Shown: positions 1-21,900 of the stretch, piece after piece
Position numbering within the stretch: position 1 is the stretch's first letter
Layout: every line of letters begins with the position of its first letter
Origin: an uncultured Elusimicrobia bacterium
Lineage (GTDB): Bacteria > Elusimicrobiota > Elusimicrobia > Elusimicrobiales > UBA9959
Length of the DNA stretch: 64,000 nucleotides
Assembly (NCBI GenBank): GCA_903873295.1
Contig: CAIQNV010000082.1
Coordinates: 1-64,000, forward strand
Direction: 5' to 3'
Position numbers and translations under genes: made by a program
The notes under the pieces: model-generated
What the model was told of the DNA's origin: nothing
Database searches by the model: none
Seen by the model: only the letters and a program-made list of their open reading frames with translations

Positions 1-3000
1 CAAAGACTCGGCCGGATAGCCGGTCTGCGAGGAAACTATCTCGAGCAGAACTTTGGCGACGGTTAAGCCGGCGTTGGCCCCTGTTTCAGCGGCAGGCTGC
101 GCGGAGGGCTGCGGCATTCCCGCCGAAAGGTAGGCCGTCACTTGGCGCAGGGTGCGGATGGAGCCGAGCTGCTCCGGCGTGATGCGGGGGGCGGAAGGCA
201 GTTTTTCCTGAAGCTCGGAAAGTATAGCCACGCGCTTGATGGAATCGATCCCCAGATCGGATTCCATATCCATATCGGTGTTCAAGGATTCCGCCGGGTA
301 GCCGGTCTGGGAGGAAACTATACCGAGCAGGACCTTTTCTATGTTCGTTCCGGCGCCGGTGTGGTTGGCGGCCGCTGTCTGCGGCGGCAGCGCGGGTTGC
401 GTTATCGCCACGGGCCGGTATGCCGGAGCAGACTGGAAAACGGGGAGCTGTCCGGCCGGCGCGCCGGTGAAAAGCTGCTGCTGCTGATCGACCAGGGCCT
501 GAAAAGAGCGCTGGGCGGCCTCCTGGCCTTCAAGGAACCGGGCGTGCAGCAGAGCCGTCTGCTCCTGCATTTTCTGAAGTGCGGCCATGCTTTCCTGCGC
601 GATGTGCAGGGCGTCGGAGGCGACGGCGTAAGACGGCGCGGGAGCCTGAAGGGGCTGTGCCGTCTGGAACGCCGTTATCTGCCGTATAACTTTTTTTGTA
701 GCGGAAGCGGGGCGGGGAGAACGGTAGTTAGCGCCGGTAAGTTTCACCGCGAGTCTGGAGACTTTCTTTTCCAGGGCGTCCTTCGCGCCGGCTTCGCCGT
801 TCTCCCAGGTTTTAAGGTCCAGGCGGCAGCCGAGCGAGGCGAGGCGGGCCAGGGCGCGGGCAGCGTCGGCGATGCCGGAGCGTTTGCCTGAAGAGGCATC
901 AAGGGCGAAGGCGGTGTGCTCCTTGCCCGCGAGGATGGACGCGGTCAGACCGGTGAGGCGCGCGCCGGGGCCCACTTCCAGGAATATGCGCAAACCGGAG
1001 ACATGCATCTTTTCTATCATCGCCGTGAATTCCACTGGGGAAGCGAGCTGCGAAGCAAGTATCTCGCGCGCTTTGTCGGCGGAATCCGGGTAAGCGGCCC
1101 CGGTCTTGTTCGCGTAAACACCTGACTGAGGCTTATTGAATTTCACCTTTCCCAGCGCCGCGGCGAATTCTTTCTGCGCCCCGGCTACAAGGGGGCTGTG
1201 GAAAGCGGCTGAAACCTGGAGAACGGTGTTCTTCATTGAGCGCTTAGTGAAAACTTCGGCGGCTCTCTTTATCTCCCCGGTGCTCCCGGACAGCACGAAC
1301 TGCGCCGGGGCGTTCTTATTGGCTACGATCAGGTCGAGCTTCTCTTCCTTCATGACTTTCTCGATCTCGGCAAGGGCAGCCTGCACCGCGAGCATGCCGC
1401 CGCGGTCGCCTTCGCCGCGGGCCATCAGGCTGCCGCGCAGTTTTGACAGGGAGAACAGGGAAGTCTCGTCGAAAACCCCGGCGGCGCACAGCGCCGTCAG
1501 TTCGCCGTAGCTGTGCCCGGCGAAAGCGTCGGGGGACAGGCCGAAGCCGGACAGGACCCGGTAAGCGCCCAGTTCCGCCGCGCCCAGCGCGGGCTGCGCG
1601 ATATCGGTTCCCCGCAGTTCGTCGGCCTGCGCCTGCTTTCCCGCGGGGGTGAAAGCGGGCCGGGGGTAGATGAAGTCGGACAGAGGTTTATCCCCGCCGA
1701 AATTTTTATCGGCCGCGGCGATCGCGTTCAGCGCCGCGGGGAAGCGGCAGACAAGGTCGCGCTGCATACCGGGGTACTGGGCTCCCTGGCCGGGGAACAG
1801 CACGGCGAGCTTTTCAGGAGCGCCGGAGGAGAAGAATATCCCGTCCGGGGTCGTCCAGGTCTTATTGGCCTTCTGTGAATCCAGGTTCGAAAGGGCGGAA
1901 TCAATGAGCTTGCAGGCGTCCTGCTTCTCGCGCTCGAGCACAAAGGTCAGGCGTGCGGTGTCCGAGGATTCGAAAGCGGCGCGGGAACGCATCGCTTTCA
2001 CGCGGATGCCGTCCCAGTCCAGACCTTTCCAGGAATTCAGTTCACGCTTCAGGACTTCGGTGTCGGCTCCCGACAGGGCGGCTATCTGCACGTCGCCGTC
2101 CCAGTCCGGCTGCAGTTTCTCCGGGGAGTACTCTTCCAGCACGGCGTGGAAATTAGCGCCGCCGAAGCCCAGCGCGCTTACCGCCGCCCGGCGGGGATGG
2201 TCCTTTTTAATCCAGGGGCGAAGCTCGGTGTTCAGGTAAAAAGGCGTAGTTCCGGCCATCAACTGCTTTAGAGGGGTGTTCGCCTTAATGGTGGGAGGCA
2301 GGGTTTTATTATAAAGCGAGAGGGCGGCCTTGATGATGCCGGCCGAACCCGCCGCGGCTTTGGTATGGCCTATCATGGATTTGACGGAGCCGAGGGCGCA
2401 CCATTCACCTTCTTTTTTCGCGTCCCGGTAAACCTCCGCCAGGGCGCCCAGTTCCACGCCGTCGCCGACAGTAGTCCCGGTGCCGTGGGCTTCTACAAGT
2501 TCTACCGTGGAGGGAGAGACGCCGGTCACTTCGTAGGCGTTCCTGAGCGCGCGCGCCTGTCCTTCTGAGCTGGGCGCGTAGATGGCTTTGCCTTTGCCGT
2601 CGGAGGAAGACCCTACGCCCTTGAGCACTGCATAGATCCTGTCGCCGTCCTTTACCGCGTCTTCAAGGCGCTTCAGAACTATCATGCCCAGGCCTTCTCC
2701 CAGGGCGGTTCCGTCCGCGGAGGCGTCGAAAGGTTTGGCGTCGCCCGAAGCGGAGAGGGCGGGCGTTTTGCTGAAGCACATGTACATAAAAATATCGTTG
2801 AAGCAGTCCACCCCGCCGGTGACCACCATGGAAGAGCGCCCGGCAGCGAGTTCCAGCGAAGCCATGTGTACGGATGCCAGCGAACTGCCGCAGGCGGCGT
2901 CGACGACGCAATTGGTTCCGCCGAGGTTAAAGCGGTTGGCTATGCGGCCGGATACCACGTTGCCGAGCAGGCCGGGGAAGGAGCTTTCCTGCCAGGGGAC

Positions 3001-3522
3001 ATAGTCCTCCTGCATGCGGGAAATGATCGCCTCGGCGTCCTCGCCGGCGATGCCGAATTCGGAAAGGGCTTTGCGCCACTTGGGGTGGCCGAGCCGCGCG
3101 CCCAGGGGGATAACGAGCTCCAGCGCGCCGGTAACGCCCAGCACTACGCTGACGCGGCTGCGGTCGAACTCGCGGCCGGGGCCGTAGCCCGCGTCCTCGA
3201 GGGCCATCTTGGCGGCCAGCAGGCCGAGCAGCTGGGCGCTGTCCGTGGCTTCCAGAGCGTTCGGGGCCAGGCCGAATTCCGACGGGTCGAAATCTACGGG
3301 CAGGATGAAGCCGCCGCGGCGGGCGTAGGTGCGGTCGGGGCTTTTGGGGTTCTTGTCGTAATAATCTTCGGGCAGCCAGTGGGAGGCGGGTACTTCGGTG
3401 ATGGCGTCGACGCCGGTCTTAATATTGGCCCAGAACCGGCGCGCGTTCTCCGCTTTGGGGAATAAGCAGCCTATGCCCACAATGGCTATGGGTGACTGGA
3501 CTGACTTGTCTTTAACGCTCAT
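1..3522 (-). CDS. pfaA: PfaA-like multidomain lipid/polyketide synthase (3' part outside window)
   Basis: Large iterative synthase subunit that builds a polyunsaturated or other secondary lipid chain. The start ATG is at 3522, with an AGAGG ribosome site 8 bases upstream, and the frame stays open to the left edge (1174 codons visible). Domains in order: ketosynthase (about residues 10-450; active Cys211 in DAACGSS, then EAHGTGT and GHTKAAAG), malonyl/acyl transferase (about 565-880; Ser671 in GHSYGE), a Gln-rich linker (about 950-1010), an acyl carrier domain (Ser1094 in LGIDSIK) and the beginning of a second carrier domain at the edge. Tandem carriers after KS-AT are the PfaA pattern; a ketoreductase would be expected further on. 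pfaD lies 12 bases upstream in the same operon. A related type I PKS is the alternative, but the PfaD neighbour argues for a Pfa-like system. Product unknown. Confidence 0.9.
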   Translation of the reverse strand, partial: MSVKDKSVQSPIAIVGIGCLFPKAENARRFWANIKTGVDAITEVPASHWLPEDYYDKNPKSPDRTYARRGGFILPVDFDPSEFGLAPNALEATDSAQLLGLLAAKMALEDAGYGPGREFDRSRVSVVLGVTGALELVIPLGARLGHPKWRKALSEFGIAGEDAEAIISRMQEDYVPWQESSFPGLLGNVVSGRIANRFNLGGTNCVVDAACGSSLASVHMASLELAAGRSSMVVTGGVDCFNDIFMYMCFSKTPALSASGDAKPFDASADGTALGEGLGMIVLKRLEDAVKDGDRIYAVLKGVGSSSDGKGKAIYAPSSEGQARALRNAYEVTGVSPSTVELVEAHGTGTTVGDGVELGALAEVYRDAKKEGEWCALGSVKSMIGHTKAAAGSAGIIKAALSLYNKTLPPTIKANTPLKQLMAGTTPFYLNTELRPWIKKDHPRRAAVSALGFGGANFHAVLEEYSPEKLQPDWDGDVQIAALSGADTEVLKRELNSWKGLDWDGIRVKAMRSRAAFESSDTARLTFVLEREKQDACKLIDSALSNLDSQKANKTWTTPDGIFFSSGAPEKLAVLFPGQGAQYPGMQRDLVCRFPAALNAIAAADKNFGGDKPLSDFIYPRPAFTPAGKQAQADELRGTDIAQPALGAAELGAYRVLSGFGLSPDAFAGHSYGELTALCAAGVFDETSLFSLSKLRGSLMARGEGDRGGMLAVQAALAEIEKVMKEEKLDLIVANKNAPAQFVLSGSTGEIKRAAEVFTKRSMKNTVLQVSAAFHSPLVAGAQKEFAAALGKVKFNKPQSGVYANKTGAAYPDSADKAREILASQLASPVEFTAMIEKMHVSGLRIFLEVGPGARLTGLTASILAGKEHTAFALDASSGKRSGIADAARALARLASLGCRLDLKTWENGEAGAKDALEKKVSRLAVKLTGANYRSPRPASATKKVIRQITAFQTAQPLQAPAPSYAVASDALHIAQESMAALQKMQEQTALLHARFLEGQEAAQRSFQALVDQQQQLFTGAPAGQLPVFQSAPAYRPVAITQPALPPQTAAANHTGAGTNIEKVLLGIVSSQTGYPAESLNTDMDMESDLGIDSIKRVAILSELQEKLPSAPRITPEQLGSIRTLRQVTAYLSAGMPQPSAQPAAETGANAGLTVAKVLLEIVSSQTGYPAESL

Positions 3523-3534
3523 GGTAGCCTCTTT

Positions 3535-5160
3535 TTACGCGAAGAATCGGGAGAGCTGCTCCCTTGTCTGCGGTTCCTGCCGCGCCAGCCTGGGGTCTAC
3601 GGAGACTCCCTGGCAGCGCAGCGCGTGCAGGCGGGTAAGCGCCGCCGCACCGGCGAGTAAATTGTGGGCGACGGTGACCGCGTCGCGGGCCTGGGGCTGT
3701 TCGAGGAAAGAACCTTTCGCCCATTCGTTGAAGGCTCCCATCGAAGGACCGCACCAGATCTGGTAATCCAGTTTGCGGGATTCGTCGCCGGCCAGCGGCC
3801 AGCGGGAAGACCGGCTCAGATACCAGCGAAACACCAGGGCCATTTGATGTTTAGGGTCTCTGTCGGCGCGCTCCGCCTGCGCGGGGTCCCTGCGCAGAAA
3901 AAAATCGCGCGTGCCCTGCCAGATCTCGGCAAAAGGCGCGCGGAAATAATCCTTCTCCAGCACGGCGCGGATCTCGGAGGGGATCTCCTCAAAGCCGTTA
4001 TAGGCGCGGTAATAATCGTAAAGCTTGTTGGCGCGCATGGCGAACATGGTGCCGCGCTTCAGGACTTGGACTTTTACGCCCATCTCGAACATATCGGCGG
4101 CGGCGGCCATGGCCACGTCGGCCTGCTCGGCCTCGGCCAGGAGTTTTTTGACGAGGCCGGAGGCGCCGGACTCGATGCAGGCCTGGTTTACCGAGCCGGT
4201 AACTATATAGGCTGCGCCCATCATGAACGCCGCGGCGGCGGCCTCGGGAGTGGCTATGCCGCCCCCCGCGCCCACGCGGAGCGGCCTGGAGTATGAGTAA
4301 CGCTCCTGCAGCCTGTTCCTCAGGGCTATTATCGTGGGAAGGAGGTTTACCAGCGGCCGGTTGTCGGTATGTCCGCCTGAATCAGCCTCGGCGGTCACAT
4401 CTTCCGCCATCGGTATTTTAGCGGCGAGTTCGGCCTGCCCGGGGGTGAGTTCCCCGCGCGACACAAGTTCCTTCAGGAACTTCTCTTCCGGGGGGGAGAA
4501 AAAACGGGCGGCCACTTCCGTCCGGGAAACCTTGCCTATTACGCGGTTCGGGGTTTCTATTTCTCCGCCGGAGTTCCTGCTGATGCCGGCCGTCCGGAAG
4601 CGGACAAGCGGCAGCGTCAGGGTTATAAAAGCGGAAGCTTCTATAAGCCGCACGCCGCGGCGCAGGTATAAGTCCGTAAGCGCCGTTTCAAGCGCGGGGT
4701 CGGACGGGCTGTGAATGAGGTTGAAACCGTAAGAATAGGGAACATTCCGGAGACGGTCGATGGCTTTTTCTATTTCCTCAAGCGGCTGGCCGGCGGCGCC
4801 ATAAAAGCTTAGCATTCCCGCCCGGCCCAAAGCCTCGGCGAGCTGCGTGGAACTGATGCCGTTGGCCATGGAGCCGCCCACATAGGCGTATCTCAGGTTA
4901 TGGGTGCCGCAAAAACCGGGATCGCCGAGATTTTTCGGGCGGCAGGCCGGTATGACCGCGGCTGAAGACGAAAGGCCGGGGACCAAGGACAGGCGGCCGT
5001 CGCCGCTGATCACCGAGAACGGCGTGGCGAGATCACGCAAACAGGAGAGCGTTTCAGCCGAATAAGGCAGAAAAGGCTGCGTTTCAGTTCTTGGCGCTGA
5101 GGCGGTCAAACGGTTCTCCGTACCCGGCTTAGTTTTATGGAAAGGAAACAGCGATATCAT
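3535..5160 (-). CDS. pfaD: PfaD-family trans-acting enoyl reductase (FMN-dependent, nitronate monooxygenase fold)
   Basis: PfaD family protein of 541 residues, the usual length. Family members are flavin-dependent reductases that act in trans on double bonds of the growing chain on PfaA-type synthases. Visible features are the motif YVGGSMANGISS near residue 95, the TIM-barrel region with the glycine-rich stretch RVGAGGGIATPEAAAAAF, and the ITGSVNQACIESG-like phosphate-binding segment (here IVTGSVNQ). The ATG at 5160 is preferred to the in-frame TTG one codon earlier. A TATAAT-like sequence lies just upstream on this strand. It is the first gene of the operon, whereas in classical marine pfa clusters pfaD is usually last; such reordering is known for non-marine Pfa-like clusters. 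The upstream region is shared with the divergent radical SAM operon. Confidence 0.93.
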   Translation of the reverse strand: MISLFPFHKTKPGTENRLTASAPRTETQPFLPYSAETLSCLRDLATPFSVISGDGRLSLVPGLSSSAAVIPACRPKNLGDPGFCGTHNLRYAYVGGSMANGISSTQLAEALGRAGMLSFYGAAGQPLEEIEKAIDRLRNVPYSYGFNLIHSPSDPALETALTDLYLRRGVRLIEASAFITLTLPLVRFRTAGISRNSGGEIETPNRVIGKVSRTEVAARFFSPPEEKFLKELVSRGELTPGQAELAAKIPMAEDVTAEADSGGHTDNRPLVNLLPTIIALRNRLQERYSYSRPLRVGAGGGIATPEAAAAAFMMGAAYIVTGSVNQACIESGASGLVKKLLAEAEQADVAMAAAADMFEMGVKVQVLKRGTMFAMRANKLYDYYRAYNGFEEIPSEIRAVLEKDYFRAPFAEIWQGTRDFFLRRDPAQAERADRDPKHQMALVFRWYLSRSSRWPLAGDESRKLDYQIWCGPSMGAFNEWAKGSFLEQPQARDAVTVAHNLLAGAAALTRLHALRCQGVSVDPRLARQEPQTREQLSRFFA

Positions 5161-5276
5161 CAATTATATATGTTTCCTTTATGGCCCGTCCAATAAAAGA
5201 CTGAAAAAGAGGCTGTTCATGTGTTGTCGAAGAAGGCGGGGGTCCTTCGCGCTCCGGGACCGGGTTTGCGCCTGGC

Positions 5277-5430: not shown

Positions 5431-6579
5431 ATGCCTCCTGTGAAATACGATCTTGCCTGCGTGGTGTGGGAACTTACGCTGGCGTGTAATTTAAAATGCC
5501 TGCACTGCGGGTCCACGGCGGGCGGCAGGCGCGCGGAGGAGCTTTCCACCCGGGAAGCGCTTGACCTCTGCGCCGATCTGAAAAAGAGCGGCTGCCGGGG
5601 AGTGGCGCTGATGGGGGGCGAGCCGCTGCTGAGGAAGGATTTTTTTGAAATAGCGGCCCGCGTGCGGGAGCTCGGCATGGAGCTGTCCGTCATCACCAAC
5701 GGCACTATACATTCCGAAGAAATTTTTGCGAAGCTTAAAAAGCTTAAACCGCGCGCCGTGGCCGTCAGTCTGGACGCCGCAGACCCGGCTCTGCACGATA
5801 AAATAAGGGGTTTGGCGGGCGCTTTCAGGAAAACCACTGATTTCATGAACCGCTGCCTTAAAGAAGGCCTGCCGGTCAGCGTCATTACCACCGTCCACAA
5901 GCTCAATATCGGAGAGCTGGCCAAGCTGCGTGACCTGATAAAAGGCCGCGGCATTGCCTGGCAGGTGCAGACCGCCGGAGGCGAGGGCGGCCGCTTTTCG
6001 AAGGAATTCCTGCTCGACCCGGAGGAGTTTTACTCCGTGGGACTTTTTGTCGAGGCCTGCCGCCGCGAGTACAGCCCGGAAGAACTGCCCGTAATAGGCG
6101 CCCACGACCTGGGCTATAACTCCGCGCTCCTGAAAAACGTTTCGCTTTATGAGAAGTGGGATGGCTGCCAGGCCGGGATCTCGGTGGCGGGCGTGCGCAG
6201 CGACGGGGGCGTAACGGGCTGCCTCGCTATTAACGACGATAAATTTATGGAAGGCAATGTGCGGCAGAAAAATTTTTTCAGGATCTGGAACAGCCCGGGA
6301 TCTTTCCTTTATACGCGGGGCTTCAAACAAGAGCAGGCGGGGCTCAATTGCGCCGCCTGTGAACATATAGAAACCTGCAAGGGCGGCTGCAATGAAATGT
6401 CGCTCATGAAAACCGGCGTGTCGCACAACGACCCGTATTGTTTCTGCCGGCTCGAGAAGGAAATCTTTCGCGACGAGCTCAAAAGTCCGCTTAGAAAAAC
6501 AGGTCTTAATATTTCCTGGCCGTCGGGCGGGGAAGCCTTCCGGCGCCTGGGCCGCATATTCTCGGGAAGACGCGGCTGA
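5431..6579 (+). CDS. Radical SAM/SPASM domain protein
   Basis: Radical SAM enzyme of 382 residues. The [4Fe-4S]-SAM motif is CNLKCLHC (Cys19, Cys23, Cys26), followed by a GGEP motif (MGGEPLL). The C-terminal half is a SPASM domain, rich in cysteines from about residue 250: GC...GC, then CAAC-x5-C-x3-C and a final CFC. These would hold auxiliary Fe-S clusters, as in PqqE, MftC and AhbC/D-type enzymes. The frame is open upstream to 5221, but that part lies inside repeat copy A, so I place the start at the ATG at 5431, shortly before the conserved core; no clear ribosome site is visible. It is the first gene of a six-gene operon with U32-family proteins and a methyltransferase. The substrate cannot be read from sequence; peptide, quinone or lipid precursor are all possible. 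Confidence 0.9.
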   Translation: MPPVKYDLACVVWELTLACNLKCLHCGSTAGGRRAEELSTREALDLCADLKKSGCRGVALMGGEPLLRKDFFEIAARVRELGMELSVITNGTIHSEEIFAKLKKLKPRAVAVSLDAADPALHDKIRGLAGAFRKTTDFMNRCLKEGLPVSVITTVHKLNIGELAKLRDLIKGRGIAWQVQTAGGEGGRFSKEFLLDPEEFYSVGLFVEACRREYSPEELPVIGAHDLGYNSALLKNVSLYEKWDGCQAGISVAGVRSDGGVTGCLAINDDKFMEGNVRQKNFFRIWNSPGSFLYTRGFKQEQAGLNCAACEHIETCKGGCNEMSLMKTGVSHNDPYCFCRLEKEIFRDELKSPLRKTGLNISWPSGGEAFRRLGRIFSGRRG

Positions 6580-6598: not shown

Positions 6599-7438
6599 AT
6601 GCTGATAGTGGCAGGCGCTAAAACTTACGATGAGGCCGATTGGCTGCTCGCCAACGGCGCCGCCGAGGTTTACTGCGGCGTCCCCGGCCTGCCCAACCAC
6701 CGCGACGCCGACCAATGCCTTGAAAACGACGCCGAATTCCTCCGCATCGCGCGCCTGGCCGGCGCCCGCGGCAAAAGAGCGCTGCTGGCCCTTAACGAGG
6801 CCTGCTTCGAGAAAGATTACCCCGCTGTCGCCCGGCGGGTCAGGGCGATAGTGAAAACCTGCGGCTGCCCGGTTATAATACGCGAACTCCCGCTGTTCCA
6901 TTACCTCTACAACAGCGGCCTCAGGGCCGAATTCATCATAAGCAGCCTGTCGCTGGTTTTTAATTCCCGCGCGCTCGACTATTACAATAAGCTGGGCGTT
7001 AAGCGCGTGATACTGCCCTTCCACCTGCTGCCCGGAGAGGCCGGCCGCATAATAAACAACCGTCGCGGCCTGGAGACGGAGATCTTTTTTCATGCCGATT
7101 TCTGCTGCCCCAATATGGACCCCGCCTGCCGCCTGGACGGCTGGCTTAAGTCCTTCCAGGTCTGCCGGTTTCCCTATACCTGCGGCGGGAAGCCGCACCG
7201 CATGCCCGAGGCTAACGTGCCGCAGAAGCTGGATATCGTCTACGACTCTTTTCATTCCGGGATAAAATATCTGAAGATAATACGGGTGACCGACTTCAAG
7301 GACCAGAAGGAAGTATTGAAAGAGGCGCGGGTGATGCTCGCCCTGCTGGAAAAAGGCGTGAGCCGCGAAGATTTCCGGAAACTGGGAGAGAAGCTTTATT
7401 TCTCGGTCTCCAGGCATGGCGGGAGGACAGGCAGGTGA
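6599..7438 (+). CDS. U32 family protein, UbiU-like subunit, first copy
   Basis: Protein of 279 residues of the U32 'peptidase' family, whose studied members (UbiU, UbiV, TrhP, RlhA) are Fe-S proteins acting in oxygen-independent hydroxylation rather than proteases. Begins LIVAGAKTYDEAD and runs as a TIM-barrel-like fold. The cysteine cluster near residues 167-192 has the spacing C-x6-C-x11-C-x5-C (CCPNMDPAC, then VC, then TC), resembling the iron ligands of UbiU. The gene at 8142 is a clear paralogue with the same spacing, so this is the first half of a duplicated gene pair. A TATAAT sequence (6582-6587) lies 11 bases before the ATG, so an internal near-leaderless promoter is possible. It overlaps the next gene by 4 bases, suggesting coupled translation and a complex. 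Confidence 0.85.
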   Translation: MLIVAGAKTYDEADWLLANGAAEVYCGVPGLPNHRDADQCLENDAEFLRIARLAGARGKRALLALNEACFEKDYPAVARRVRAIVKTCGCPVIIRELPLFHYLYNSGLRAEFIISSLSLVFNSRALDYYNKLGVKRVILPFHLLPGEAGRIINNRRGLETEIFFHADFCCPNMDPACRLDGWLKSFQVCRFPYTCGGKPHRMPEANVPQKLDIVYDSFHSGIKYLKIIRVTDFKDQKEVLKEARVMLALLEKGVSREDFRKLGEKLYFSVSRHGGRTGR

Positions 7439-8145
7439 AAACAGAAAAAGCCGTAGCCATTAGCGCCCCTGAATTCCGCGGTGTCCGCGCCGCCGCGCTC
7501 AAAGGCTTCGATCTGCTTTATCTCGGCGACGAATTCTGCCAGAACCTGCTGCCGGCGCGCACCGATTTCGGCGCGGCGGCGGAAAAATTCAAGGGCCGCG
7601 TAATTCTTGTGACGCCGCTCCTTACCGATGCGGTCTTTGACGAGATGGAGAGGGTGATAACTTCTTTCTCGTCCGCAAAGAACAGGCTGGAGGTGGTGGT
7701 AAACGACCTGGGCCTGCTGCATACCGTGAAGCGGCGCTACGCCCTCCGGGTAAATGTGACCTTGGGCCGGCTTTTCGCCCACCGGGTAAAGGTTATGCCG
7801 CCGGGCTTTGCCGCCCGTTTCCTTAAAGAGCACGGCGTAAAAAGGGTGGAGCTGGACGACGCTTCGCTGCTGTCCAGGTTCGAAGGGATTAAAGGCCTGA
7901 AATTTTCATTCCATTCCCCGTTCCGGTATCTTTCCGCTACCCGGTTCTGCCCGTGGGAGCGCCATTGGCCGGCTTCCTGCGCGCTGTCCTGCCTTGGGAA
8001 AACGCAAAAACTGGAGCATCCCCGCCTGCCGCGGCCCCTGCTGCTTAAAGGCCAGGCTTACGGCCTGAGGACCTCCGGGGTTCCCGCGCACCCCGCCCTG
8101 GACCGGCTGGTTAAAGAATCCCTGCCCGCAGCGGGGCGGGGATGA
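7435..8145 (+). CDS. U32 family protein, UbiV-like subunit, first copy
   Basis: Protein of 236 residues, shorter than and different from its upstream neighbour, and paralogous to the gene at 8963. It carries one Cys near residue 37 (GDEFCQNLLP) and a C-terminal group C-x9-C-x3-C in TRFCPWERHW...CALSC. This one-plus-three layout resembles the four cluster ligands of UbiV (one N-terminal, three C-terminal). Together with the preceding gene it would form a UbiU-UbiV-like heterodimer, which in known systems hydroxylates aromatic ring precursors without oxygen. The segments NDLGLL and VELDDASLL are shared with the second copy. Overlaps of 4 bases on both sides show tight operon packing. The actual substrate is not known. 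Confidence 0.83.
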   Translation: MKTEKAVAISAPEFRGVRAAALKGFDLLYLGDEFCQNLLPARTDFGAAAEKFKGRVILVTPLLTDAVFDEMERVITSFSSAKNRLEVVVNDLGLLHTVKRRYALRVNVTLGRLFAHRVKVMPPGFAARFLKEHGVKRVELDDASLLSRFEGIKGLKFSFHSPFRYLSATRFCPWERHWPASCALSCLGKTQKLEHPRLPRPLLLKGQAYGLRTSGVPAHPALDRLVKESLPAAGRG

Positions 8146-8978
8146 AGACGGTCGTCGGCGTTAAGACTTTCGCCGAGGCGGAAACCATGCTGCGCCTTGG
8201 CGCCGACGAGCTTTACGGCGGGCTTGCCGCCGTGCCCAACCACCGCCTGCCCGCGCAGTCTTTTCAGACCCTTGAAGAGCTTAAGGCCGCCGTGCGCCTC
8301 GCGAAAAGCGGGGGGAAGCGGTTTTCTTTCCTGTTGAACCAGCCCTGCTTCGGCCCGAAGTACGGCGAAGTCCTCGACGTGGTCGCCGCGCTGGACCAGG
8401 AGGGTCTGGGCGCCTGTATCGTGCGCGAACTGCCCATGTTTGAGAAATTGACCGCCATGAAGCTGCGCGCGAAACTTACCGTCAGCAGCCTGGCGCTGTG
8501 CTTCAACCTGCCCGCCATGCGCCGTTTCCGCCAGCTGGGCGCGAGCCGCGTGGTGCTTCCTTTCCAGCTTACCCCCGAGGAGGCGGCTCCGCTGCTTAAG
8601 AACCGGCTGGGGCTCGAGACCGAAGTGTTCTTCCACGGCGATTTCTGCTGCGTCAACGTCGACCCCGCCTGCCGGCTCTGGAGCCTGAAGCGCGTCATCC
8701 AGACCTGTCGCTACACTTACTCCTGCCGCGGAGGGCAGTGGAAAATGCCCGAGGCGAACGCGCCGGAAAAAATGCGCTCGGTCTACGGTTTTTATCACGG
8801 CGGAGCCGGGTACTTGAAAATGGTGCGCATGGAGAACTTTAAAGATGAGATCGAGGTCTTTAAATTCTCGCGCATGCTTACGGAACTTTTAAAAAGAGGT
8901 TTGGGCGAACAGGAATTTATCCGCATGGGCGAAAAACTTTATTCTACGGTTTCAAGGCACGCATGGAAAAAGCGCTAG
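8142..8978 (+). CDS. U32 family protein, UbiU-like subunit, second copy
   Basis: Protein of 278 residues, the second copy of the UbiU-like subunit. It aligns with the protein at 6599 from end to end: VGVKTFAEAETM against VAGAKTYDEADW, the PNHR motif near residue 33, the FFHGDFCC / FFHADFCC cluster region, and the shared ending RMGEKLYSTVSRH / KLGEKLYFSVSRH. The Cys spacing C-x6-C-x11-C-x5-C is unchanged, so an iron-sulfur cluster is likely retained. The copies have diverged well beyond a recent duplication, which suggests two separate complexes or substrates. It overlaps the next gene by 16 bases. Confidence 0.85.
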   Translation: MKTVVGVKTFAEAETMLRLGADELYGGLAAVPNHRLPAQSFQTLEELKAAVRLAKSGGKRFSFLLNQPCFGPKYGEVLDVVAALDQEGLGACIVRELPMFEKLTAMKLRAKLTVSSLALCFNLPAMRRFRQLGASRVVLPFQLTPEEAAPLLKNRLGLETEVFFHGDFCCVNVDPACRLWSLKRVIQTCRYTYSCRGGQWKMPEANAPEKMRSVYGFYHGGAGYLKMVRMENFKDEIEVFKFSRMLTELLKRGLGEQEFIRMGEKLYSTVSRHAWKKR

Positions 8979-9649
8979 CGCTGGACGCCTCCGTCCTTAA
9001 AAAGCGGCCGCTTCGAATACCGGCCTGTTACGGCGCCGTCATGCTGGGTTCGGAATTCTGCGCCGGGCTGCTGCCCTCGCCGCAGGAGGCGCTGGGCGTG
9101 GCTGCGGCTTTCAAGGGCCGCGTTATATTGGCCACGCCCCTGCTTACCGAAGCCGGGCTGGCGGCGGTTAAAAAAATACTTCAGGCCGTCCGTGAAAAGC
9201 GGCGCCTGGAAGTGATAGTCAACGATCTTGGCCTGCTGGAAGTGCTGCGCGCCCGGTTCAGGGACGAGATAGCGGTTTCCTGCGGACGGATACTTACCCA
9301 CAGGGTGAGAATAATGCCGCAGGCTTACGCGAAAGAATTCCTGGCCCGCTACGCCATAAAAACTTTCGAAGTTGACGACGCTTCCATAATAAAACGCCTG
9401 GAGCCGTACGGGCTGGCGCTTTCCTGGCATTATCCTTTCCGATACGCCACCGTGACCCGGTTCTGTCCGTGGGAGGAGCGCTGGGCCTCGGCGTGCGGCA
9501 GGTCCTGCCTGGGCCGCATGGAGCCGCTTACCCACCCCGGCTTGCCGGTAACGCTGTGGCGCATCGGTACGGCCTATTTTGTGCGCGGGCAGAAGAGCAG
9601 GGCCGGAGCGGGGCGGAATATCTTTACCCCGCCTTTTAAGAACAAATGA
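8963..9649 (+). CDS. U32 family protein, UbiV-like subunit, second copy
   Basis: Protein of 228 residues, paralogue of the protein at 7435. The N-terminal Cys is at about residue 33 (LGSEFCAGLLP) and the C-terminal trio C-x9-C-x3-C is in TRFCPWEERW...CGRSC. NDLGLLE and FEVDDASII match the first copy. The ATG at 8963 lies inside the end of the previous gene, and the stop overlaps the next ATG by 4 bases, so all four U32 genes and the methyltransferase appear to be translated as one coupled set. It is expected to pair with the protein at 8142 in a UbiU-UbiV-like complex. The pairing is inferred from gene order and cysteine pattern. Confidence 0.83.
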   Translation: MEKALALDASVLKKRPLRIPACYGAVMLGSEFCAGLLPSPQEALGVAAAFKGRVILATPLLTEAGLAAVKKILQAVREKRRLEVIVNDLGLLEVLRARFRDEIAVSCGRILTHRVRIMPQAYAKEFLARYAIKTFEVDDASIIKRLEPYGLALSWHYPFRYATVTRFCPWEERWASACGRSCLGRMEPLTHPGLPVTLWRIGTAYFVRGQKSRAGAGRNIFTPPFKNK

Positions 9650-10605
9650 AACTTAATATAGGCTGCGGCTATAATCGTCTTGAAGGATACCTTAACCTCG
9701 ACTCGAGCCCGGCTTCCGCCGCCGACAGGCTGATGCCGGCCCATGACCTGGAATTTGAGAGCTGCTCCGTATCAGAGATAAAAGCCCTGCAACTGGTAGA
9801 ACATCTCGGTTTTTTTAAAACCAAATTTTTTCTGTCCGAGTGCTGGCGGGTCTTAAAGCCCGGCGGAACGCTTAGAATAGAGACCCCCTATATAGAAAAA
9901 ACCTTTGAGCTCTTTCTCGCCGGAGACCGAAGGGTTAAAGAGGCGGCGCTGGGCTGGGTGTACGGCTCCGAGACGCCGGGCATGAACCATCTTTATTGTT
10001 TTCCAAAGGAGCTGCTGGCGGAGCTGCTGGCCGGGGCCGGCTTTGAAATTGAAAGCGCCGAAGAATTCCTTTTTCAGCCGTATCGTCCCGCGCTGCGTTT
10101 TGACGCCGCTAAGAAAGACGGCGAAAAACCGGCCCTCAACTCCGCGCTGCGCAGGCGCCTGTTGGACGAACATCTGGCGGATCTTACCTGTGAGCTTGAA
10201 GGCGCGGGGCTGGAGCTAATTATAGGGAAGCTGATGGAGGGCGGCGGCAATTCCGCTGCGGCGCTGGAGCAGGCGCTTTACAGCGTTCCCGCCGCGCTTG
10301 AATATTTTACGCTTAAGGAAGAAACGGAGAAGCACCCGTCGCGGGAGGCCGCGGCCTGCGCCCGGCTGGCGGAGTGGGCTATACAGGGACGGCTTGCGGC
10401 GGAATATGCCGCCGGAATAGAAAACGGGCTTGCCGCCGCGGCGGCTTTTGAGGCGGCCTTCGCGCTGGGCCGGGGGCTTACAGCCCATGCTCTTTCCGGG
10501 AACCCCCGGCCTTACGGGCCTGCGCCGGCCGCGGACGCCCCCCGCGTGCTTACTCTGGAGACAGCAGCGGCCTGGCTGTTTAAAAGACGATTTGAACGGC
10601 CTTGA
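9646..10605 (+). CDS. Class I SAM-dependent methyltransferase, last gene of the U32 operon
   Basis: Protein of 319 residues. Motif I is LNIGCGYNRLEGYLNLD at residues 3-19. The acidic and post-motif regions follow (LQLVEHLGFF, then WRVLKPGGTLRIETP around residue 75), typical of the type 11 (UbiE/SmtA-like) Rossmann methyltransferases. The C-terminal 150 residues are alanine-rich and not recognisable. It overlaps the preceding U32 gene by 4 bases and is followed by a strong terminator, so it closes the operon. In this company a role in methylating the product hydroxylated by the U32 proteins is plausible, as Ubi methylases follow Ubi hydroxylases, but this is an inference from context only. Confidence 0.8.
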   Translation: MKLNIGCGYNRLEGYLNLDSSPASAADRLMPAHDLEFESCSVSEIKALQLVEHLGFFKTKFFLSECWRVLKPGGTLRIETPYIEKTFELFLAGDRRVKEAALGWVYGSETPGMNHLYCFPKELLAELLAGAGFEIESAEEFLFQPYRPALRFDAAKKDGEKPALNSALRRRLLDEHLADLTCELEGAGLELIIGKLMEGGGNSAAALEQALYSVPAALEYFTLKEETEKHPSREAAACARLAEWAIQGRLAAEYAAGIENGLAAAAAFEAAFALGRGLTAHALSGNPRPYGPAPAADAPRVLTLETAAAWLFKRRFERP

Positions 10606-10984: not shown

Positions 10985-11020
10985 GCCGGCGCTTGTTTTA
11001 ACGGGCGCCGGCTTTTTTTT
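10985..11020 (+). terminator. Rho-independent terminator after the small lipoprotein
   Basis: The 8-bp stem GCCGGCGC (10985-10992) pairs with GCGCCGGC (11005-11012), followed by eight T. Clear intrinsic terminator. Confidence 0.92.
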
Positions 11021-11072: not shown

Positions 11073-11390
11073 ATGAAAAAGTTTTATGAACTGGGAGCAA
11101 AAACCGGCCTCACCAAGGTGGAGATAAACCGCGTTGCCAAATTCGGCATGCTGGGCCTGCTTGCGGTCGGACTGTCCGGGCTCGCGGCCTGCTTAAAGGC
11201 GCAGAAAAACGAAGGTCCAGCCGCGTCGGCAAAGCCGGAAACTCTGCAGGACCTCGCCGACTCCGTGAATAAAAGCACTGCCCCCGCCGAGCGGGACGGA
11301 CAGAATACCAATTGCGGACCCTATCCCGGCTATCCCTGCGGCACGCGCTATTACACGGTTAGCCGCGCCGACTTTTGGCGGGCGGCCTGA
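11073..11390 (+). CDS. Small putative lipoprotein with Cys/Gly/Tyr-rich C-terminus
   Basis: Protein of 105 residues, not recognised. A long basic N-terminus (about 25 residues) precedes a hydrophobic segment ending LSGLAAC near residue 41, which fits a lipobox. The mature part is about 65 residues: a Lys/Ala/Ser linker, then a compact end with two Cys in NCGPYPGYPCGTRYY, then TVSRADFW. The short C-terminal motif looks conserved in style (Gly, Pro, Tyr and paired Cys) and could form a disulfide loop or be a modified core. The stop codon overlaps the next start by one base (TGATG), so it is coupled to the secreted protein that follows. The coding start has no strong ribosome site. Confidence 0.62.
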   Translation: MKKFYELGAKTGLTKVEINRVAKFGMLGLLAVGLSGLAACLKAQKNEGPAASAKPETLQDLADSVNKSTAPAERDGQNTNCGPYPGYPCGTRYYTVSRADFWRAA

Positions 11391-15981: not shown

Positions 15982-18900
15982 GTGAAGATAAAACATGGAA
16001 TTGCGATTGCGGCCGCGCTGGCTTTTCTGTTCATAACAGGGGCTGAAACTTTCGCCGCCTCACCCGGCCGCGTGAGTTACCAGGGGACGCTCAGGAAGGA
16101 CGGCAGGCTTTTCAGCGGCACCACCGCCATGGAGTTCCGCATAACCAGCGCCGACGGCTCGGTCAGCTACTGGGCTTCCGGCTCCACCGAAGTGTTCGTC
16201 TCGACCGGCCTTTTCCGCTACGCGCTCGGCTCGCCCAACGAGGCTGATTTCGCGGGCATCTCCTGGAAAGAGATCACCCCTTACGTGCAGATGAAGCTGG
16301 ACGGCGCCTGGCTGCCGGCCGAGCCGCTTTACGCCTCGGTCTACTCGCTGCACGCTAATACCGCCGAGGCCTCCACCGGCACTTTTACCGTCAATAACGG
16401 CGACCTGCGGCTCACGGCCGTCTCCGGCAGCAAGGGCATCATTTTCCCGGACGGCACGGCGCAATACAGCGCCCCCGGCTGGGCCGTAACCGGCTCCTAC
16501 ACTTCTTTCGTCGGCGGGGTCGGCGTGGGCACCCTTTCCCCCGAAACCAGGCTGGACGTGAAGGCGGCCGCAGGTGACGCTTATGCGCAGTTTTGGCGTG
16601 ATTCCGCCGGAGTCATACGGGCCACTATGACGGCCGCAGGCGTGCTTTATGCCAACGGCTCTCAGTTGAGCGGAGCCGATAACCTGGGCAATCATACCGC
16701 CACGAAGGTTCTGCAGATGGCGGGTTTCCCGATAATCAACTCCGGGGCGATAACCGCCAATGGCCAGGTTACTTCTTATTCCAGCGTCACCGTTACCGGG
16801 GCGCTGGGTCTTGGCGCTCCCAGGCTCAGACTTGCCGGCGGAGTTGAGCTCTCCTCGTCCGCGGCCAACGGCGGGATTTACATTTCAAGCAACGTGTCCC
16901 TGTCCGCCGGGGCCAGGTATTACGGCGACGGCTCGGCCCTGACGGGAGTGATCGGGAATGACAATCTCGGGAACCACACGCTTACCCAGAACCTGGTGAC
17001 CGGCGCCTACTGGATCTCATATGACGGCTCCCCTAACTTTGGAATTAACCAGGACGCGCTGGGCAATGTCGGCATAGGCAATACTGCCGGCGCCGCCAGG
17101 CTGGATGTGCGCGGCGCGGCCAATAACTACATACAGATCTGGCGCCCTTCCGGCGGCACAATAGTCGCCTCCATGACGGTGGCGGGGGTGCTTTATGCCG
17201 ACGGCTCGAAGCTCCGCAATCTCCCGGCCGGCGGCACCGCCAACCGGGCGCTGGACATGGCCTCTTTCAATATCAACAACGTCTCCACCGTGACCGCGGG
17301 CTATCTCTCCAGCCCGGGCGCGGGGGTGATCTTCACCACCAATGCGCTGGTGATGGGCGGGCGGCTGGGCGTCAATACCAGCGCGCCCGGGGCAAGTCTG
17401 GACGTGAACGGCAGCGTAAAGAGTTCCAGCCTCTCCGGCGCCGGAGATCAGTGCGTTTACGCCGATAATACGGGCCGGCTTCTCCTGTCCGGGGGCGGAG
17501 CGTGCGGAAGCGCCGCCGGGCTTGATAATCTGGGCAACCATACCATGCTCAGCAATCTTATAACAGGCAGCCACTGGCTGTCTTATGACGGCAGCGACGG
17601 CGGGTTATCGGTCGGGCCCGGCAACAACGCGGGGATAGGCGTTTTATCGGCCGCCACCCGTCTGGACGTTCAGGCCGGCTCCGACGGCTACGTGCAATTC
17701 TGGCGCGATTCCGGCGGCACTATTATCGCTTCCATGACTTCTACCGGGTTGTTTTACGCCGACGCTTCTAAACTGCGCAACCTGCCGCCGGGGTCGGACA
17801 ACCTGGGCGACCATACCGCTACCACGGCCCTGCTGATGGCGGGGTTCCCGATAAACAACGCCGGCGCCATAACCGCCGCCAGTCTTGCCGCGCCCCGACT
17901 GAACTTTGATCCCGCCGTGGAGATCTCCTCCGAAGCCTCAGCCGCGCTGGGCGCCGGCGTGCGCATCTCCTCGAACGTGTATATAGTAGGCTACTCCTCC
18001 GCCGCGAAGTATTACGGCGACGGCTCCGGCCTGACCGGAGTTATCAGCTCGCCGGACGACCTCGGTAACCACACGGCCACGCAGAACCTGAATATGGCCG
18101 GCAACGAGATAGTCGGCGTTTCCACGATCACTCTCAGTTCCGTGACCAGCTCCGGCATAGGGGTGGTATTCAGCACTAATGTGCTGCTTATGAGCGGGCG
18201 GCTGGGTGTCAATACCAGCGCGCCAGGGGCAAGTCTGGACGTGAACGGCAGTGTAAAGAGTTCCAGTCTCTCCGGCGCCGGGGATCAGTGCGTTTACGCC
18301 GATAATACGGGCCGGCTTCTCCTGTCCGGAGGCGGGGCGTGCGGAAGCGCCGCCGGGCTTGATAATCTGGGCAACCATACCATGCTCAGCAATCTTATAA
18401 CAGGCAGCCACTGGCTCTCCTTCGACGGCAGCGACGGCGGGCTATCGCTGAATATAGCCAACAATGCGGGCATCGGCGTTCCGTCGGCAGGGACCCGGCT
18501 GGATGTTCAGGCGGCCGGCGGGGACGCTTACGCGCAGTTCTGGCGCAATGCGGGCGGCACTATTGTCGCTTCCATGACTTCTGCCGGTTTGCTTTATGCC
18601 GACGCCTCCAAGATGCGCAACCTGCCGTCCGGCGCGGATAATCTGGGCAGCCACACGGCGTCGCAGAACCTTAATCTGGCCTCGCACGATATCATAAACG
18701 TTTCGACCATAACGGCGGGCTATCTGACCAGCGCCGGCCCCGGCGTGGTTTTCAGCACTAACTTGTTTCTGATGGACGGCAATCTGGGCGTGAATACCCT
18801 GGCGCCGCAGGAAAAACTGCATGTTAACGGAAAGATCCTCAGCTCCGACCTGGCCGGAGCTGCGGACCGCTGCGTCTATGTTACCGCAGAAGGCGTATTT

Positions 18901-21900
18901 CACGCGAAGAACTCGGACTGCGGTACGGCGGCCGGGGCGGCCGACGATCTTGGTTCGCATATAATGACCCAGAACCTGGAGACAGGCCCGAACTGGATAA
19001 GCTACGACGGCACGAACACGGGCATACGGATAGATCCGCTCGGGAATGTTTCGATCGGCGACGATATTGCAAATGCGCGGCTTGACGTGCGCGGCGCGGC
19101 GGGTACGGGCAATAATTATATACAAACCTGGCGCAACGTGGCGGGCGTGGCGCAGGCTTCGATGACCGTCTCGGGCATCCTGTACGCCGACGGCTCGAAG
19201 CTGCGCAATCTGCCTCTCGGGGCCGATAATCTGGGCAGCCATATCGCCACTACCACTCTGCAGATGATGAACTACCCGATAGTTAACGCCGGGGAAATAA
19301 CGGCCAATGGCCAGATCACTACTTACTCCAGCGTTACGGTGGCCGGGGAACTGGGTTTGGGCGCGGCCAGGCTGAGCCTTTCTCCCAATGCGGAGATCTC
19401 CTCCGAGACGGCCGCCGCGCTGGGCGCGGGGGTACGCATCTCGTCGAACGTCTATATAGTGGGCTTCTCTTCGGCCGCCAAATATTACGGCGACGGCTCC
19501 GGACTTTACGGAATGCCCAGCGGGAACGTTATCGATAACCTTGCGGCCACGCTGGGCGCCGGCAGCGACGCCGGCGGCCTTGATATCTCCAATGCCGGGG
19601 CTATGACCGCCGTGAGCGTGGGCGCTCCCAAGCTGAGTCTTCGTCCCAAAGTGGAGATCTCGTCCGAAACGGCCGCCGCGCTGGGCGCCGGCGTGCGCAT
19701 TTCGTCGAACGTGTATATAGTGGGCTTCTCCTCGGCCGCCAGATATTACGGCGACGGGTCCGCGCTTGCAGGGGTACACGACAACCTGGGAAACCATACA
19801 ATGGGGCAGAACCTCGTTGTGGGGAACTGGTGGCTGTCAGGCGATGGAACCGCCAAGGGCATTTCCATAAATTCCAGCGGTAACGTCGGGGTGGGTATTA
19901 ATCCCGCCACGGCGAAGCTGGAGATAAACGATGGCGACGGCAGCGCGTTCACCAGCGGCCTCAGGTTTACCAATTTCGCCTGCTCCGACACCGAGAAATT
20001 AACGGTGGGCGTGGACGGGGACGTGATATGCTCCGCTGACCAGACCAGCAGCGGCGGCAGCGGAAACGTGGTTGACAACCTTTCTGACACTTTAAGCGCC
20101 TCTAATAATGCCGGCGGGCGCGGTATCCTGAACGCCGGCAGCTCGGCTTTCGGACGTGTTACGCCCGGCACGAGATTGGATGTGCAGGCTGCTCCAGGAG
20201 ACAGTAACGCGCAATTCTGGCGGAATTCCGACGGAGTTGTAAAGGCGACCATGACGGCGGAGGGCGAGCTTTACGCCGACGGCTCCAAGCTTACCGGCAT
20301 CGTCGGCACCGGCGGGAATATCGTGGATACTCTTGCGGCCACGCTGGCCGCCGGCGCGAACGCGGGAGGCGCCTACATAAGCAATCTCAGCAGCGCGGCC
20401 CTGGGCCGGGCCATTGCGGCAGCCAGTCTGGATGTGCAGGCTGCGGCCGGGCCCGGCACTTACGCGCAGATCTGGCGTAATTCCAGCGGCGTCGAGGTTG
20501 CTTCGATGACGGCCGCGGGCGTGCTTTACGCCGACGGCTCCAAGCTTACCGGAGTCACCGGGAGCGGTGGGAATATTGTGGATACTCTTGCGGCCACGCT
20601 GGCCGCCGGCGCGGACGCCGGGGGCGCCTACATAAACAATCTGAGCAGCGCGGCCCTGGGCCGGGCTACCGCCCAGGCGCGGCTTGACGTGCAGGCGGCC
20701 GGGGGAGACACTTACACGCAGATCTGGCGCAATTCGGGCGGCATCGAGGTAGCTTCGATGACGGCCGCGGGCGTGCTTTACGCCGACGGGTCCAAGCTTT
20801 CCGGAATGGGCGTCTGGAACATCGTCGATACTCTTGCTGCCACGCTGGCCGCCGGAACCGACGCGGGGGGGCTTGATATTTCCAATGCCGGCACTATAAC
20901 CGCAGCAGGCGTGGGCGCGGCCAAACTGAGCCTCCATTCCAACGTCGAGATCTCGTCCGAGACCTCCGCCGCGCTGGGCGCCGGCGTGCGCATCTCGTCG
21001 AACGTGTATATGGTCGGGTTCTCCTCAGCCGCTAAATATTATGGCGACGGGTCCGCCCTTGCAGGGGTACATGACAACCTGGGAAACCATATAATGCAAC
21101 AGAACCTCGTTGCAGGGAACTGGTGGCTGTCAGGCGATGGAACTGCTAAGGGCATTTCTATAAATTCCGATGGGAAAGTCGGAGTGGGTATTAATCCCGC
21201 CACGGCAAGGATGGAGATCAACGATGGGGACGGCAACCCGGTCACCAGCGGCCTCAGGTTTACCAATTTCGCCTGCTCCAGCACTGATAAATTAACGATA
21301 GACGGGGGCGGGAACGTGGTATGCGCCGCTGACCAGACCAGCAGCGGCGGCAGCGGGAACGTGGTAGACAACCTTTATGATACTTTAGGTGCCTATAATG
21401 ACGCCGGCGGGCGCAGTATCTTGAACGCCGGCAACTCGGCTTTCGGACGGACCACGGCCGACACGAGATTGGATGTGCAGGCTACCCTCGGCGACACTTA
21501 CGTGCAATTCTGGCGGAACTCGGACGGCGTTGTAAAAGCGACCATGACGGCCGCGGGCGAGCTTTACGCCGACGGCTCGAAACTGAGCAACCTGCCGGAG
21601 GGGAACGTTATAGATACTCTTTCGTCCACGCTGGGCGCCGGCAACAATGCGGGCGGCCTCAGTATAGTCAACTCGGGGGCCATAACGGCGAACGCGGCTA
21701 TCACAACTTACTCCAGCATGACGGTGGCGGGCATCGACGCCGTCAGCGGCTACAGCCTTGTGCTCAGCTCGGGCATAAACATGCCCAATGGCACGGTTAA
21801 CGCCGGGCTGGTGGCGGCGGGCGGGGCCGGCGATAACTATTTTGCCGGCAATGTCGGCATCGGGACCGCCGCGCCGGGGCAAAAACTGTCCGTCGCCGGC

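Follow-up and report, generated by a model that had tools for sequence, protein, structure and literature searches.

Tandem UbiU/UbiV-like gene pairs in an uncultured Elusimicrobia bacterium as candidate oxygen-independent peptide hydroxylases

What would a bacterium do with two UbiU/UbiV-like gene pairs placed end to end, between a gene for a radical S-adenosylmethionine (SAM) enzyme and a gene for a methylase? This arrangement lies at 6599-9649 of a stretch of 64,000 nucleotides, hereafter the window, which is positions 1-64000 of contig C82. The contig belongs to a metagenome-assembled genome (MAG) of 3.49 Mb, ~90% complete; among named genomes, Elusimicrobia MAGs are its nearest relatives. 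We call the long genes U1 and U2, the short genes V1 and V2, and the block of four UVUV. The answer we favor is that U1-V1 and U2-V2 would form two heterodimeric, [4Fe-4S]-dependent oxidases of the U32 family, in each of which V would bear a cluster and U, less certainly, another. They would hydroxylate their substrate without O2, with prephenate or a derivative as the oxygen source. The target may be a side chain, aromatic or heteroaromatic, in a peptide bound or crosslinked by a SPASM enzyme, and two pairs in tandem may perform two successive hydroxylations. The clade, sister to UbiU/UbiV, would then have a different job from them, acting on ribosomally made peptides or proteins beside radical SAM/SPASM enzymes. 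We give this whole chain, which includes insertion of the UVUV block into an older operon, a probability of about 0.5. The genes concerned are as follows.

~5440..6579, plus strand: radical SAM/SPASM protein, 379 amino acids from a GTG at 5440, with an alternative ATG at ~5431 (Pfam)
6599..7438, plus strand: U1, long U32 protein, UbiU-like, 279 amino acids (PF01136, 1.3e-7)
7435..8145, plus strand: V1, short UbiV-like partner, 236 amino acids, GTG start (profile comparison and model)
8142..8978, plus strand: U2, second long U32 protein, 278 amino acids (PF01136, 1.2e-12)
8963..9649, plus strand: V2, second short partner, 228 amino acids (alignments and V tree)
9646..10605, plus strand: SAM methyltransferase, 319 amino acids (Methyltransf_11, 5e-4, slightly under the curated cut-off)
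10985..11012, plus strand: probable intrinsic terminator of the operon, a 12-pair stem followed by a T run (consensus match only)

A sequence-only reading of this DNA had described four U32-type genes alternating long-short-long-short, and all four open reading frames are where it placed them, in the order U1-V1-U2-V2 with successive overlaps of 4, 4 and 16 bases. Ratios of nonsynonymous to synonymous substitution against the orthologs in genome G281 are low (U1 0.107, V1 0.175, U2 0.084, V2 0.226), a mark of purifying selection, so these are real genes. U2 is ~44% identical to U1. The radical SAM/SPASM gene ends 19 bases upstream of U1, the methylase start overlaps V2 by 4 bases, and the four genes are probably co-transcribed with the operon around them. 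The radical SAM/SPASM protein matches Pfam Radical_SAM (9e-29) and SPASM (1e-5); its best NCBIfam matches, to TIGR03913, TIGR04103 and the AhbC/NirJ type, are below cut-off.

U1, U2 and V1 belong to the U32 (PF01136) superfamily. Pfam recognizes U1 and U2 only, and V1 and V2 have no match in Pfam or NCBIfam. The V proteins are homologous to U by profile comparison: profiles built from 40 V and 42 U proteins align at an hhalign E of 2e-8, and the V profile aligns with UbiV at an E of 3e-5 (probability 73%). An AlphaFold2 model of V1 (predicted local distance difference test, pLDDT, 93.4) has the U32 structure 5D88 as its best PDB match (E 4.5e-4), as does the model of U1 (pLDDT 85.5; E 3e-6). 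Searching the PDB by sequence with U and V gave no convincing match.

In a census of 42 U relatives and 40 V relatives, the N-terminal cysteine plus C-x9-C-x3-C first noticed in the short proteins proved solid: in V1 numbering, C35, C172 and C182 occur in 40/40 relatives and C186 in 39/40, and the counterparts in V2 are C33, C168, C178 and C182. This CXnCX9CX3C arrangement corresponds to the CXnCX12CX3C of UbiV, where the same four cysteines are proven [4Fe-4S] ligands (PMC6747719). The motif C-x6-C-x11-C-x5-C proposed for the long proteins is present in both window U proteins, but only 12 of 42 relatives keep its last cysteine (C195), which several orthologs have lost. The dependable positions in U are C177 and C189 (42/42) and C170 (31/42). 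U1 keeps E161, C169-C170, C177 and C189, the adjacent CC pair being typical of the window's own U clade. E161, C170 and C177 of U1 align with E162, C170 and C177 of TrhP, which are essential in that enzyme (PMC6599085). The first three positions of the UbiU cluster pattern, CX6CX16CX38C, are also present in the window U proteins.

The cysteines bear on the old family name as well, under which U32 proteins would be peptidases that cleave peptides. Peptide loci do lie near relatives of these genes. However, the Fe-S oxidase branch is where conserved cysteine sets and a position sister to UbiU are typically seen (PMC6747719), and the qhp operons in which some relatives reside already have their own protease, QhpE. 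We regard peptidase activity as extremely improbable, and it is likely, in our judgment, that the U and V proteins are Fe-S U32 oxidases.

A tree of 73 U32 proteins, which included UbiU, TrhP and RlhA, places the window U proteins within a clade of 65 rows (support 100/100). This clade is sister to UbiU, with a joint support of 99/96 (UFBoot 99), and TrhP and RlhA fall outside. U1 and U2 lie in separate subclades, and therefore their duplication is older than the present diversity of the genus. The U and V trees have their main groupings in common, as expected for partners. The description of these genes as UbiU/UbiV-like pairs accordingly stands for the conserved cysteines and the sister position, but the proteins are in a clade of their own. 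U1 and U2 score 32.1 and 34.0 bits with the UbiU family model (NF047963; curated cut-off 440 bits), and V1 and V2 have no match to the UbiV model (NF047965; cut-off 275 bits) at E 0.1. By these comparisons, the U proteins resemble UbiU but are not UbiU.

The position next to UbiU raises the possibility of an anaerobic quinone synthesis, comparable to the role of UbiU-UbiV in E. coli ubiquinone biosynthesis, whose product the methylase would then methylate. In favor of this, 7/7 genomes tested carry a gene of the UbiA superfamily. The two systems have in common an adjacent U-V pair, the four-cysteine pattern of V, and in U three of the four cysteine positions and the conserved Glu. They differ in that V is only weakly similar to UbiV, the family is without the fourth UbiU cysteine, and there are several pairs per genome. 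UbiT (SCP2 domain) was not found in the window's genome or six related genomes, in a search whose E. coli control was positive, and the UbiU cut-off is missed by far. Relatives sit in peptide-maturation loci, not beside recognized quinone genes, and the methylase is paired with the radical SAM gene independently of UVUV. We considered the V-U pairs of Thauera and Aromatoleum as the UbiUV of those organisms and rejected this, as a true UbiV lies elsewhere in both genomes; the clade is additional there. A quinone product is thus quite unlikely.

A second known chemistry within the superfamily is the prephenate-dependent hydroxylation of RNA, and two known types of U32 oxidase act in this way (PMC6599085). 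The window proteins might be enzymes like RlhA and TrhP that hydroxylate some other, new base: they have the U32 fold and the essential Glu and two cysteines, and the shikimate-operon context of their relatives suggests a prephenate link. But the U clade does not include TrhP and RlhA, which are larger with extra domains, and neither of which has a UbiV-type partner. The window's genome also encodes a separate RlhA on contig C37 (41.5% identity over 612 amino acids), and the gene context of the U-V pairs is one of peptide and radical SAM genes. RNA as the substrate is very unlikely.

If neither quinones nor RNA, what do these enzymes act on? The relatives point to peptides in two settings. The first is the His-Xaa-Ser (HXS) peptide systems, HxsABCD, which mature peptides with radical SAM enzymes. 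We surveyed 92 V loci in the 44 Elusimicrobiota genomes with a V match. Within a limit of 10 kb, 37 of the 92 lie near HxsB, the HXS peptide maturase, versus ~1.5 expected at random positions, although loci of related genomes are not independent and the Poisson figure overstates the significance. Genome G205 has an uninterrupted operon, U-V-HxsD'-HxsB-HxsD-c4-HxsA, with gaps of -35 to 64 bases (L128:2289-7502). In G226 and G115, radical SAM and U-V genes with overlapping ends run in series up to an HxsB-family gene. Elusimicrobiota U-V pairs are thus often inside or beside HXS systems, and HXS loci occur twice in the window's genome.

Two observations on these loci may be recorded here. The HxsA precursor of G205 has long His-Ser-Gly repeats. 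Signal-peptide proteins with the motif LTLTTYYPAPYG adjoin HXS and U-V genes at L008:6640-7362, L132:1128-1910 and L128:7504-8205.

The second setting lies outside Elusimicrobiota. Here V-U pairs of the same clade are found in operons for quinohemoprotein amine dehydrogenase (QHNDH), beside the radical SAM enzyme QhpD and the peptide subunit QhpC. The bearers include Aromatoleum, Aneurinibacillus, Desulfobacterales, Desulforhabdus and others, mostly anaerobic lineages. In QHNDH maturation, the flavoprotein QhpG dihydroxylates a Trp of crosslinked QhpC with two oxygens from O2 (PMC7876137). We searched for QhpG by tblastn, taking three annotated genes of the QhpG type as queries, as a regular expression for the FAD motif alone was too crude. 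The V-U operons examined gave nothing credible, and no QhpG was found at ten QHNDH loci with a V-U pair (L094, L096, L097, L105, L069, L076, L084, L090, L106, L109). Three control operons showed the reverse, with QhpG in 3/3 and no U or V; the V-U loci had been chosen for carrying V-U, and the controls number only three. Since V-U is present where QhpG was not found, its position suggests an O2-independent replacement of QhpG, and the pair may offer a way to make cysteine tryptophylquinone anaerobically. QhpG itself is an unrelated, O2-using flavoprotein; what the two would share is the oxidation of a residue in a ribosomal peptide beside a SPASM-type radical SAM enzyme.

A third group of neighbors suggests where the oxygen would come from. 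In genome G030 the V and chorismate mutase genes share 17 bases; they head a complete shikimate operon (L139:9127-16753), continued by DAHP synthase, aroE, aroC, aroK, aroB, aroQ and aroA. In G123, G212 and G216 a U-V pair lies ~1 kb from chorismate mutase and the same operon, in divergent orientation, with HXS genes on the opposite side, and in G221 and SKS1.bin71 the shikimate operon adjoins a UVUV block. TrhP and RlhA require prephenate (PMC6599085), and a review names it as the source of the hydroxyl groups when ubiquinone is made anaerobically (PMC11574389). That a U-V pair overlaps chorismate mutase in an operon of this kind supports prephenate as the oxygen source on independent, genomic grounds. 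O2-independent oxidation is the best reading of the genes, and the anaerobic oxidation proposed from the sequence is upheld to that extent.

The six genes had been read as one anaerobic oxidation pathway. In the form considered here, the SPASM enzyme, UVUV and the methylase would together make a small molecule; the tight spacing and probable co-transcription of all six genes, which recur in G221, G155 and SKS1.bin71, speak for it. Co-occurrence in other genomes rules out that the six always belong together. Seven genomes have orthologous UVUV blocks, and the radical SAM gene and methylase flank the block only in the window and the three genomes just named, all within the window's genus. In G057 the block stands without them, yet between the same neighbors; in G281 it also stands without them, beside the same PfaD gene; in G272 the block and the radical SAM-methylase pair are on different contigs. 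Conversely, 11 genomes of several genera (L190-L197, L200, L201, L203) have the radical SAM and methylase genes side by side, in some cases overlapping, and no U32 gene separates the two. In one of these, G247 (L191), the overlap is 4 bases. Another is G209, whose radical SAM protein is the nearest to the window's (86% identity). The radical SAM tree shows at least two changes in whether UVUV is present, and the outgroup genera are without it. The radical SAM gene and the methylase are therefore the older pair, and UVUV is a cassette inside an older operon. The simplest reading is that the cassette was gained within the genus and lost later in some members. That the operon is closed by a methylase, as had been noted, results from where the cassette was placed. 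This composite origin counts against the six-gene pathway as a functional unit, although co-transcription may still link the genes, and we consider such a pathway unlikely.

Several points, beyond the two sampling limits already given for the HXS and QhpG comparisons, weigh against peptide hydroxylation by cluster-bearing U-V heterodimers. First, because the fourth cysteine of UbiU has no counterpart in the U family, the cluster in U may be ligated differently or be absent, and the U1 model has low confidence in the loop that would hold the cluster (~residues 165-190). Second, the window locus has neither chorismate mutase nor a recognizable peptide substrate, and HXS genes (HxsB/HxsC/HxsA) are absent from its 64 kb, in which it differs from the HxsABCD loci of its relatives. 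Third, the literature searched held no biochemistry for this U/V clade. We see a peptide substrate for this locus as roughly an even bet. A little short of even is our estimate for the broader proposal, a hitherto undescribed class of O2-independent, prephenate-fueled, heterodimeric Fe-S hydroxylases of ribosomal peptides that work beside radical SAM/SPASM enzymes, with one branch replacing QhpG when tryptophylquinone is formed anaerobically and another, with five pairs in this genome, serving peptide systems of Elusimicrobiota.

The fold and the probable chemistry are already known from U32 oxidases, which act on precursors of ubiquinone and on bases in RNA. What looks new is the clade, the contexts of its genes and the substrates that it is likely to have. 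In the library searched we found no paper joining U32 proteins with HXS, such peptides or QHNDH, and anaerobic C-H hydroxylation of peptides by such a route is not described there. If the clade does hydroxylate peptides, it would provide that route, and it would explain how anaerobes without the O2-dependent QhpG could make a protein-derived quinone cofactor. Several lineages with a U-V pair are cultured, and the hypothesis is therefore testable.

The doubling of the U-V pair is real and is not confined to the window. The genome has five pairs: two in the window, two on contig C133 and one on C73. C133 carries a second, diverged UVUV block (L007:10933-15937) with a short-chain dehydrogenase/reductase, a methylase, a polysaccharide deacetylase and two radical SAM genes; its U proteins have a different cysteine set. 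The C73 pair follows an HxsC-like radical SAM gene as a single radical SAM-U-V unit. HxsB exceeds its curated cut-off on both C133 and C73, and an HxsA4 precursor is also on C133. At L149 (G155:C52), the V at 6402 is a 790-amino-acid open frame matching V, possibly V fused to another domain.

Finally, the other genes around the operon were considered. Upstream, window 1-5163 on the minus strand encodes PfaD and a PfaA-type polyketide synthase (ketosynthase, acyltransferase and acyl carrier protein domains), which point away from the operon. We rejected these as partners: among UVUV loci, only those of the window and G281 have them as neighbors, and they also lie beside radical SAM-methylase genes without UVUV in G226 and G205. 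Downstream, window 11073-11390 encodes a lipoprotein-like peptide of 105 amino acids with a near-invariant C-terminal stretch, CGPYPGYPCGTRYYTVS, present in 17 of 25 related genomes. As a dedicated precursor this peptide (near-invariant C-terminus CGPYPGYPCGTRYY) is out, because it is kept with its neighbor c26 in G269, G279 and G087, where no radical SAM-methylase pair adjoins. Further on, at window 15982-23607, is a repetitive secreted protein of 2541 amino acids, homologues of which lie downstream of the radical SAM-methylase locus in several relatives.

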